64,000 nt of DNA. It comes from Archaeoglobaceae archaeon. GTDB lineage: Archaea > Halobacteriota > Archaeoglobi > Archaeoglobales > Archaeoglobaceae. Below are positions 20,724 through 57,955 of this stretch, piece after piece (the stretch's first letter is position 1; each line of letters opens with the position of its first letter). Location: contig JAMOPJ010000045.1 of NCBI GenBank assembly GCA_027064525.1, forward strand, positions 1 through 64,000. The letters are read 5' to 3'. The notes beneath the pieces are model-generated. The model did not search any database. It saw only the letters and a list, made by a program, of their open reading frames with translations, and was not told the origin of the DNA. Both the position numbers and the translations under genes were made by a program.

Positions 20724-21172
20724 CTTTCAATCCTATTTTAGTCTGATTTAATCTAATATCAAAGAACATGCTTGAAACTATTGGCTACAAAGACTTTCAA
20801 TCCTATTTTAGTCTGATTTAATCTATTAGCAGCAGTATTCTTCCACGTGACACCAACTGAACTTTCAATCCTATTTTAGTCTGATTTAATCCTCAACTGA
20901 TAACGCTACACTGTGGCAACACAGCACTGCTTTCAATCCTATTTTAGTCTGATTTAATCTTGCAGAATACCAGAATGGGATGAAATACCTGATGATCTTA
21001 AGTTTTTCTTTCAATCCTATTTTAGTCTGATTTAATCTGTTCAACATGTTGTTCGATAAGGTTGTGGTCGAGGACTTTCAATCCTATTTTAGTCTGATTT
21101 AATCACATGGATAAGGCAGTAACAGCGTATGCATACGAGCTTCTTTCAATCCTATTTTAGTCTGATTTAATC
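20724..21172 (-). CRISPR. CRISPR array, 7 identical 30-base repeats and 6 spacers
   Basis: Repeats start at 20724, 20794, 20862, 20930, 21008, 21075 and 21143 and are identical. Read on the plus strand they begin CTTTCAATCC and end TGATTTAATC. Spacers are 40, 38, 38, 48, 37 and 38 bases. The complement ends in ATTGAAAG, the usual 8-base crRNA handle of archaeal type I/III systems, so transcription is probably on the minus strand from the AT-rich right side. The repeat resembles Archaeoglobus repeats as I remember them. No cas gene is in the window, so processing must come from genes elsewhere. Confidence 0.97.
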
Positions 21173-21553
21173 TTTGGTATTACTATGCTCATTTTCAAAT
21201 ATAAGCTTTTCTGAATTGAGTTTTTATTTAAATATTATCTGGCAACTTCAATAGTGCAAACCATTTATAACAATACCCGACTTTTATCCCTACCTTTGTT
21301 CCGAATTTAAACCATTCTAACCAATTAAATCTAAATTCGAATCCTCTTCCTTAGAGTGCAATCGGAAAACAGTTATATCCACACTCCATAACTCAATATT
21401 TCAAAATAAATATTACCAGTTTATTTTATAAAATTCATAAATTCTAAAATACCCGACAACCTGAGATCTCTATGATCGAAATTCGTTCACCGCTGAGATG
21501 GTCAAATCTAAAAATATGGAATATCGGAGAGGTTCGAATTCGAACATTGAAAA
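21173..21553 (-). promoter_or_regulatory. Probable CRISPR leader
   Basis: About 380 bases of gene-free, AT-rich sequence adjoin the last repeat on the side from which a minus-strand array would be transcribed. It contains TTTATTTAAATATTA close to the repeat and two copies of a short ATACCCGAC motif (near 21275 and 21451). Near its right end GTTCGAATTCGAAC (about 21533-21546) is a perfect palindrome that belongs more likely to the ABCE1 promoter. Confidence 0.55.
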
Positions 21554-23369: not shown

Positions 23370-23429
23370 GGTCGTGACTCCACATTGTGTGTGATTTAAA
23401 TACTCCATCAACAGTATTGCAACACCACC
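23370..23429 (-). mobile_element. 60-base miniature inverted-repeat element, copy C
   Basis: Its complement is identical over 60 bases to the copy at 36970-37029. Its plus-strand ends are GGTCGTGACTCC and GCAACACCACC, imperfect inverted repeats. It is flanked by GGAAAATA (23362-23369) and GGAAAAATA (23430-23438), a target duplication differing by one A. It sits between ABCE1 and the secreted protease gene, both of which point at it. Confidence 0.8.
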
Positions 23430-35948: not shown

Positions 35949-36911
35949 TTACCATATCGTCGGATTGTAACCGAATTCCACTTCGTCCAAAACACCTTGC
36001 GGTAATCCAAGTTTTGCAAACATCTCTTTAAAAACCGATTTATATTCACTCTTTGGGATTTTCCCAAACGGCGGGAGGTGGATCTCCAACGATATCCCTC
36101 CCAACCTATCGATCTTGATGATGTATGTAGCGTTTCCTCTGTGTAAAGTTATCTCTGCATTCGGAACTGTAAAAACGATGGAACCTATCTTGCTTGCGTT
36201 TCCGTAAAACGTTAATTCGTAACCTCCGACAACAACCCCAGACGTATCGATCGGTTGAAACGTGACGTTGTCGCTTTTGCCCTTAAAATAGTAATACACC
36301 TTGGAAACGTTCGGTATTCCGTTCACATAGACTGTTGGAATTAGCTCTTTTCCGAGTTGTTTCTTCAGCTTCGATATACAGTCATCGACGGTTTGATCGT
36401 CTAAATCAAACGTGAGCTTGAGCACGTTATGTATCCAGTCGTCAGGTGGTAGATTTCTTGATGCGTATGGATGAACGATCTCCGTGAAATACTCGACCCT
36501 GCTCCGATGTTCATTTTCTTTTGGCAGACATATCTGAAAAAACGTCCAATTCGTGTAATAGAATTTAATTGCGTCCACTCTGCACGCACCGAACCTCCTG
36601 CTCAGTTCCTCAATGCTGTTCGGTTTCAGCTTTCTCTCTTTGACCCCGTATCCAACCATATTCGCTTTTTCAATAACACTGTCATAGTCGATCTCTCCGA
36701 CGTTCATTAACTTTGTCTTATAGCTCGCAAAATCCATATAGACGATTGTGACGGCAAACAACCTGATGAGATGGTAAGCCGCCAAAATAAGAATGACAAT
36801 TCCTACAACTACAACTATTGATTTTATATTGGATTTTTGGGTGGTGATGCAACACTGTTGATGAGATATTTTAAACTATGCACAATACGGCGTCACGGCC
36901 GATTTTTGCAT
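35949..36911 (-). pseudogene. Membrane-anchored protein gene interrupted behind its start codon by a miniature element
   Basis: The open frame from 36785 lacks an ATG start, but upstream at 36911-36909 there is an ATG with a good ribosome site (GGTGAT, 36926-36921). Removing copy A of the miniature element (36840-36900) plus one 8-base duplicate joins that ATG in frame to QKSNIKSIVVVVGIVILILAAYH, a perfect N-terminal membrane anchor. With the insert, translation from the ATG stops at a TAG inside the element after 11 codons. The ~297-residue protein (if restored) has an external domain with few recognisable motifs (FFQICLPKENEH, VYVNGIPNVSKVYYY). A shorter product from TTG 36785 or ATG 36737 may still be made. 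Function unknown. Confidence 0.75.
36840..36900 (+). mobile_element. 61-base miniature inverted-repeat element, copy A
   Basis: It begins GGTGGTGATGCAACACTGTT and ends GGCGTCACGGCC. It is flanked by a perfect 8-base direct repeat GATTTTTG (36832-36839 and 36901-36908). It differs from the complement of copy D at three positions. It lies between the start codon and second codon of a membrane-protein gene. Confidence 0.9.
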
Positions 36912-36969
36912 TACTTTTGGATCACCCCCAGCAAAAATTTAAAATTTATCAATTTATACTGACATTGAT

Positions 36970-37029
36970 GGTGGTGTTGCAATACTGTTGATGGAGTATT
37001 TAAATCACACACAATGTGGAGTCACGACC
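36970..37029 (+). mobile_element. 60-base miniature inverted-repeat element, copy B
   Basis: It is identical to the complement of copy C. It begins GGTGGTGTTGCAATACTGTT and ends GGAGTCACGACC. A perfect 8-base target duplication ACATTGAT flanks it (36962-36969 and 37030-37037). It lies just downstream of the cyclo-ligase gene stop and 69 bases from copy A, in the same orientation. Confidence 0.9.
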
Positions 37030-37039
37030 ACATTGATTA

Positions 37040-48644: not shown

Positions 48645-48705
48645 GGTCGTGACGCCGTATTGTGCATAATTTATAATATCTCATCAACAGTGTTGCATCA
48701 CCACC
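48645..48705 (-). mobile_element. 61-base miniature inverted-repeat element, copy D
   Basis: Its complement matches copy A at 58 of 61 positions. Plus-strand ends are GGTCGTGACGCC and GCATCACCACC. AAATTTT flanks it on both sides (48638-48644 and 48706-48712), extending to 8 bases (CAAATTTT) if the last C is counted in the target. It lies in a 330-base gene-free stretch (48524-48853) that otherwise shows only AT-rich sequence. Confidence 0.88.
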
Positions 48706-57279: not shown

Positions 57280-57955
57280 GGTAGAGAATGTCAAGACAAA
57301 GGTTTAGAATAGAATTAGCTAATAATATTTATGGTAGGGTTTATAGAGGAATTAATTGAAAGGGCGAAGAGGAGGAAGATATTTAAGAGGAACAAGAAAA
57401 GTTTGGAGGTTAAGATATTAGCGGGTTTATTATATTTTTTGGGCTTTCATTGAGGAAAACGAGCTTGTTTATCTCGATTTTTGAAGAAGTCTCGCACGAA
57501 TCGGTTCGTAAATACTACCACAAGCTTAAATACATTCTAAAAGAACATAGGAGGAAGGAAATTTATAGCTGTAGATGAGACGATTGTTAGAGTAGGAGAT
57601 TGGAAAGTGTTTGTATGGGCAGCAATAGACGTGGAAACGAAGGAGCTATTTGGGTTTCCATGGCTCAGACATCAATTTGCTGTTTCCAAATTTATGAGAA
57701 TGGTTTTAAGGTATTGTAAGAATAAATAAGTTTATCGTCGATAAAGGTGTTTGGTATAGAAACGCTTTCAAAAGAATGGGCTTCGATTACGAAAATGAAA
57801 AATTTGGTAGAATAAATTGCGTAGAACAATTCTTTTCCTTACTTAAATCAAGAACTAAGAGATTTTATAACAGATTCCCTAAAAATAAAGTTCAACTTAG
57901 ATCTACTCTAAGTTGGATGAAATTATAAAAATATAACATCTTGACAGTCTCTACC
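57280..57955 (+). mobile_element. Decayed insertion sequence with terminal inverted repeats
   Basis: The ends are GGTAGAGAATGTCAAGA (57280-57296) and the complement of TCTTGACAGTCTCTACC (57939-57955), matching at 16 of 17 positions. The 676-base body carries a broken DDE transposase. No clear target duplication remains, which fits an old insertion. It is unrelated in its ends to the 60-base miniature elements. Confidence 0.85.
57331..57928 (+). pseudogene. Frameshifted DDE transposase (IS6/IS240-like)
   Basis: Pieces of one transposase lie in successive frames: [18 protein letters not shown] ends at a stop near 57453, then [20 protein letters not shown], then [31 protein letters not shown], then KFIVDKGVWYRNAFKRMGF and CVEQFFSLLKSRTKRFYNRFP. 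The Asp of VDET, Asp of IVDKG and Glu of VEQFF form the DDE triad. At least three frame changes make it inactive. Family assignment is by pattern only. Confidence 0.85.

Follow-up and report, generated by a model that had tools for sequence, protein, structure and literature searches.

Insertion sequences of the IS1 family (PF03400), together with their non-autonomous derivatives, are the described elements closest to the short repeat reported here, which shares with them 8-bp target-site duplications, GGT...ACC ends and a right terminus agreeing at 21/25 positions. It differs from IS1 insertion sequences in its lack of coding capacity, in its length of 57-61 bp and in a left terminus that is loosely similar. 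An archaeal precedent is provided by the MITEs SM1-SM4 of Sulfolobus, for which 25-44 copies are cited in PMC10969869; as described there, these too are short, non-autonomous and multicopy elements, and a resident IS would likewise mobilise the element studied here, which resides in another host order, carries IS1-type ends and forms no stable hairpin. A third comparison is with the Rickettsia palindromic elements (PMC10969869), for which in-frame protein fusions are known; the same source mentions such fusions as nothing uncommon among intragenic MITEs at large. Similarly, sibling copies of our element add an open 23-codon stretch to a Cas10/Cmr2 protein and to an ORF with a signal-peptide-like segment; in contrast to the Rickettsia elements, which are ~150 bp long (PMC10969869), most copies are intergenic and the copy under study carries a stop codon. 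Both the kind of element and the process are already known, while the small IS1-type MITE family in Archaeoglobaceae is new, and our literature search found no description of this element.

The stretch of DNA analysed (the window) comprises positions 1-64,000 of contig JAMOPJ010000045.1 of an Archaeoglobaceae archaeon, the genome of which is referred to as G000. On its minus strand, a membrane-protein gene is interrupted by one copy of the element, copy A, as follows.

36919..36926, minus strand: Shine-Dalgarno site GGTGATCC of the interrupted gene, read directly, 7 nt 5' of the ATG
36909..36911, minus strand: original start codon ATG, aligned with the start of the orthologs L010 and L011
36901..36908, minus strand: target-site duplication, 5' copy, 8 bp, CAAAAATC, identical to 36832-36839
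36840..36900, minus strand: copy A, read as a 61-bp IS1-type MITE, one of 51 profile matches in G000
36876..36878, minus strand: in-frame TAG supplied by copy A, codon 12 by translation
36832..36839, minus strand: target-site duplication, 3' copy, 8 bp, CAAAAATC, from the sequence read
35949..36831, minus strand: remainder of the interrupted gene, its frame unbroken up to the TAA; the product is an uncharacterised protein with an N-terminal membrane anchor

The site GGTGATCC is complementary to the usual 3' end of archaeal 16S rRNA, and we assume the same for that of the host. Read on the minus strand, copy A begins GGCCGTGACGCC and closes CATCACCACC (36900-36840). The first-pass annotation had described an ATG followed by an 8-bp repeat, a 61-base element and the repeat again, an arrangement that we confirmed letter by letter; its title placed the insertion between the first and second codon, which is slightly off, as the insertion point lies inside codon 4 (ATG CAA AAA TC/C, the slash marking the point); the rest of it is right and well reasoned. 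Translation also bore out that the inserted 61+8 = 69 bp preserve the frame yet bring in a stop: from the ATG the present frame reads MQKSAVTPYCA, 11 aa, and ends at the TAG (36878-36876), beyond which no further stop occurs before the TAA at 35949. Removal of copy A and one repeat restores, as had been claimed, a continuous gene of 297 codons that starts MQKSNIKSIVVVVGIVILILAAYHLIRLF and encodes an N-terminal membrane anchor, with 19 codons preceding TTG 36785, which is codon 20 of the reconstruction. Such a repeat structure is not a product of chance, since the genome holds ~50 copies of the element and an exact 8-bp repeat is found at the junctions of 22/40 copies.

The family to which copy A belongs was delimited from the repeats within the window and from BLAST searches across G000, giving ~35 related places; a profile built from 21 copies then gave the 51 matches in G000, as well as 1-7 in each of four congeneric genomes and a few weak matches elsewhere in Archaeoglobaceae. 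Nearly all copies are 57-61 bp long, and in being short, present in many copies and devoid of a transposase gene they agree with what is expected of a MITE. A target-site duplication of fixed length, another expected feature, is present as well: 45 copies were extracted with their flanks, 40 of them with both ends, and an exact 8-bp direct repeat was found at the junction in 22 of these 40 (25 if one mismatch is allowed), whereas shuffled pairings of left and right flanks gave 0 exact repeats in every one of 2000 rounds. The most conserved parts are the ends and a central TTTAAAT. The terminal inverted repeats (GGCCGTGACGCC... versus GGTGGTGATGCA...) are imperfect, ~14/23 positions agreeing when counted by eye, and so are the terminal repeats of copy A (GGCCGTGA.../GGTGGTGA...). 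No exact match to the right end was found in a viral sequence collection. Further copies in the window are the following.

36970..37029, minus strand: copy B, a 60-bp MITE belonging to a different subfamily, located ~43 bp 5' of the Shine-Dalgarno site
23370..23429, plus strand: 60-bp MITE of the same sequence as copy B, flanked by an imperfect duplication (GGAAAATA / GGAAAAATA)
48645..48705, plus strand: 61-bp MITE of the copy A subfamily, with a 7-8 bp repeat CAAATTTT that shares the element's last C

Copy B, situated in the interval that separates the upstream gene from the Shine-Dalgarno site, is bordered by its own duplication ATCAATGT at 36962-36969 and 37030-37037. The window also holds a CRISPR array at 20724-21180, with seven direct repeats CTTTCAATCCTATTTTAGTCTGATTTAATC spaced 67-78 bp apart. 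Two further copies with exact duplications (L049 1293-1353 and L033 1454-1514) appear to interrupt ORFs of ~106 and ~122 codons. A copy identical to one G000 subfamily, with the duplication AAATCTAC, was found at 1150-1225 of L132 (JAMOPD010000107.1), a 3.2 kb contig that bears a ParA-type gene and is binned as Thermococcaceae; this suggests either that a plasmid or some similar element carries it or that the contig was wrongly binned.

As for the source of the transposase, the same ~119 bp, ending CATCAACAGTATCATAACACCACC, opens three G000 contigs, and the flanks beyond differ. The stretch has counterparts in genome G014, within a multicopy element of 758 bp, and in one element of the congener G001. 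Of the two proteins encoded by the G014 element, one is of the zinc-ribbon/HTH kind and the other, a DDE protein, matches PF03400 (DDE_Tnp_IS1) at 31.6 bits against a cut-off of 24.1; over its terminal 124 bp, this element shares 82% identity with that of G000. Four copies of the G014 element are bordered by 8-bp duplications (AAGTTTTT, GAGATGAG, CAAAATGC and CAGTTTTG), the same length as those of the MITE. In G000 the IS1-family element is collapsed at the ends of contigs C10, C12, C51, C53, C21, C6 and C38, with five left-end and three right-end junctions; since its left ends also lie at contig ends, it is the full IS1 that is collapsed in this assembly, and its transposase is readable at most in part, the PF03400 assignment being made by way of the G014 element. 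Read inward, the right end of the G000 IS1 (GGTGGTGTTATGATACTGTTGATGA) and that of the MITE (GGTGGTGTTGCAATACTGTTGATGG) are the ones identical at 21/25 positions. The left ends (GGTAATG... in the IS1, GGTCGTG... in the MITE) agree weakly, in GGT..TG and in bases scattered beyond it; mobilisation could thus be due to a different IS1, perhaps one since lost. An IS6-family partner, first suspected from the end sequence, was dropped, as PF13610 (IS240-type transposase) gave one weak match below its cut-off, at window positions 57568-57723, and an IS1 transposase was found instead. Judged from these ends and duplications, the element is best read as an IS1-type MITE, and its mobilisation by this particular G000 IS1 seems likely.

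The interrupted gene could be compared with orthologs in two genomes of another Archaeoglobaceae genus, L010 (G012) and L011 (G022), which are 39-40% identical to it and 295 and 298 aa long against 297 in the reconstruction, and, at 31-33% identity, in G029 and G038, genomes of the same phylum that are more distantly related. The relatives bearing on the empty site are distant ones, the nearest orthologs available being ~40% identical. In both L010 and L011, the ATG and the N-terminal anchor (MKKIIMGLILLAGLIAIAYALFAAIL... and MIRTKKIIMSLILLAGLIAIAY...) align with the reconstructed start, and neither contains an insertion. The anchor is also found in L012 and L013, so that a hydrophobic segment precedes the position of TTG 36785 in 4/4 orthologs; in Kyte-Doolittle plots with a 19-residue window, the reconstructed protein peaks at 2.78, as against 2.81 in each of the two close orthologs. 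The comparison with relatives that the first-pass annotation had proposed thus speaks for its empty site with a membrane anchor: the closest relatives start at the matching upstream ATG. Proteins lacking the anchor and starting at the internal TTG or ATG, which it had named as evidence to the contrary, were looked for among the orthologs L010-L013 and not seen: all four have the anchor, and L010 and L011 have the matching start. Searches with the interrupted protein gave no usable family and no known domain in Pfam and NCBIfam, and no match in a scan of named genomes. An ortholog is present in 0/4 congeneric genomes and in 2/54 other genomes of Archaeoglobaceae; missing in every congener and in the bulk of the family, the gene is therefore an accessory one, predicted to encode a single-anchor membrane protein.

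Taken together, we hold with considerable confidence that copy A is a non-autonomous, IS1-ended MITE that inserted in codon 4 of this accessory membrane-protein gene and stops its translation. A transposase acting in trans, which the IS1-family elements of G000 most probably supplied, would have moved copy A into the fourth codon, with duplication of 8 bp of target. Translation would then start at the old strong Shine-Dalgarno/ATG and stop after 11 codons at the TAG of copy A; the youth of the insertion, together with its net gain of 69 bp, would explain why the remaining frame is intact, and the loss of function would have cost little if the gene is dispensable. The parts of this account that are directly supported are the element family, the duplications, the IS1-like right terminus, the orthologous N-terminus and the TAG stop. 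The insertion is judged young from its perfect duplication and from the single base in 61 by which copy A differs from its closest sibling, G000:C19:25920; together with the intact frame, this upholds in relative terms the earlier description of the event as fairly recent. The intact downstream frame fits a young age, and recent loss and continued use would leave it alike. Neither internal TTG 36785 nor ATG 36737 is preceded by a Shine-Dalgarno site in our search, and hydropathy falls to 1.33 for a protein started at the TTG, with the anchor cut, and to 0.19 at the ATG, with the anchor lost. Loss of the protein is the most likely outcome on this reading of the sequence; with no good downstream start, and with the gene missing from four congeneric genomes, the insertion has probably knocked out a dispensable gene in the recent past.

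Some sibling copies lie in frame within other genes. One frame of the MITE is open in most copies, and 61-bp copies keep the frame of a host gene, since 61+8 = 69 bp equal 23 codons. In L027 (1529-1589; G000:C37:39029-39088), a copy with the duplication TTGTAGAT lies in frame within a type III-B cas10/cmr2 gene (TIGR02577, E 1.7e-110 for the ORF holding it), and the ~23 residues that it adds fall in a stretch not conserved in the G007 ortholog. In L041 (1279-1339; G000:C9:18778-18838), a copy with the duplication AACTTGCA is in frame towards the N-terminal end of an ORF of 197 aa and directly precedes its signal-peptide-like segment. A third in-frame copy, in a PIN-domain ORF (L035 1265-1325; G000:C18:77264-77324), was discounted as a tolerated insertion because a separate upstream in-frame TAG makes this ORF a pseudogene. 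Perhaps the family is an in-frame protein-insertion module kept in working proteins such as Cas10/Cmr2, of which copy A would be a failed case in the closed orientation, an idea that we put forward tentatively and think rather unlikely. A limited literature search found no description of in-frame MITE fusions in archaea.

The insertion at copy A may itself be tolerated, the protein being expressed from internal TTG 36785 or from a non-standard start, perhaps by way of a transcript born in the element and beginning at its conserved, TATA-like TTTAAAT/TTTAAAATA core. The frame is indeed open to the TAA, the TTTAAAT core is nearly invariant, and its spacing would have transcripts begin close to where the element ends. 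However, the internal starts have no Shine-Dalgarno site and would yield an anchor that is cut or lost, and a young insertion would leave the frame intact regardless; we regard such tolerance as improbable. Far less credible is a true gene start at TTG 36785 or ATG 36737, with the upstream frame and the direct repeat coincidental: mechanical ORF calling does begin at this TTG, yet the anchor lies upstream of that point in four orthologs, two of which start at the matching ATG, and the exact repeat sits at the ends of a multicopy element, so that this reading is refuted in the main by the ortholog N-termini. Read-through of the TAG by pyrrolysine or another suppressor, giving the full protein with 23 extra residues, is equally hard to believe. 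Codons before and after the TAG do form an open frame, and the PIN-domain ORF also has a single in-frame TAG; nevertheless, a profile search of G000 found no PylS above the cut-off and TAG ends 8/51 long ORFs in the window, which makes it an ordinary stop here, and the pyrrolysine reading was dropped. Least likely of all, to the point of being negligible, is the idea that the element is no transposon but a structured RNA gene or a regulatory repeat, which would suit a unit that is short, multicopy and mostly intergenic, but which is refuted in the main by the 8-bp target duplications and further opposed by the lack of any matching Rfam family, by single-strand folding no better than that of shuffles (z +1.39) and by the copy on the ParA-bearing contig binned as Thermococcaceae.

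With the IS1-type MITE preferred here, one can read the insertion, the target duplication that it left and the gene that it interrupted within a single genome, and see a small family of such elements that has multiplied in one Archaeoglobaceae lineage. Moreover, the in-frame copies in Cas10/Cmr2 and in another ORF make transposon-derived protein segments in archaea testable.
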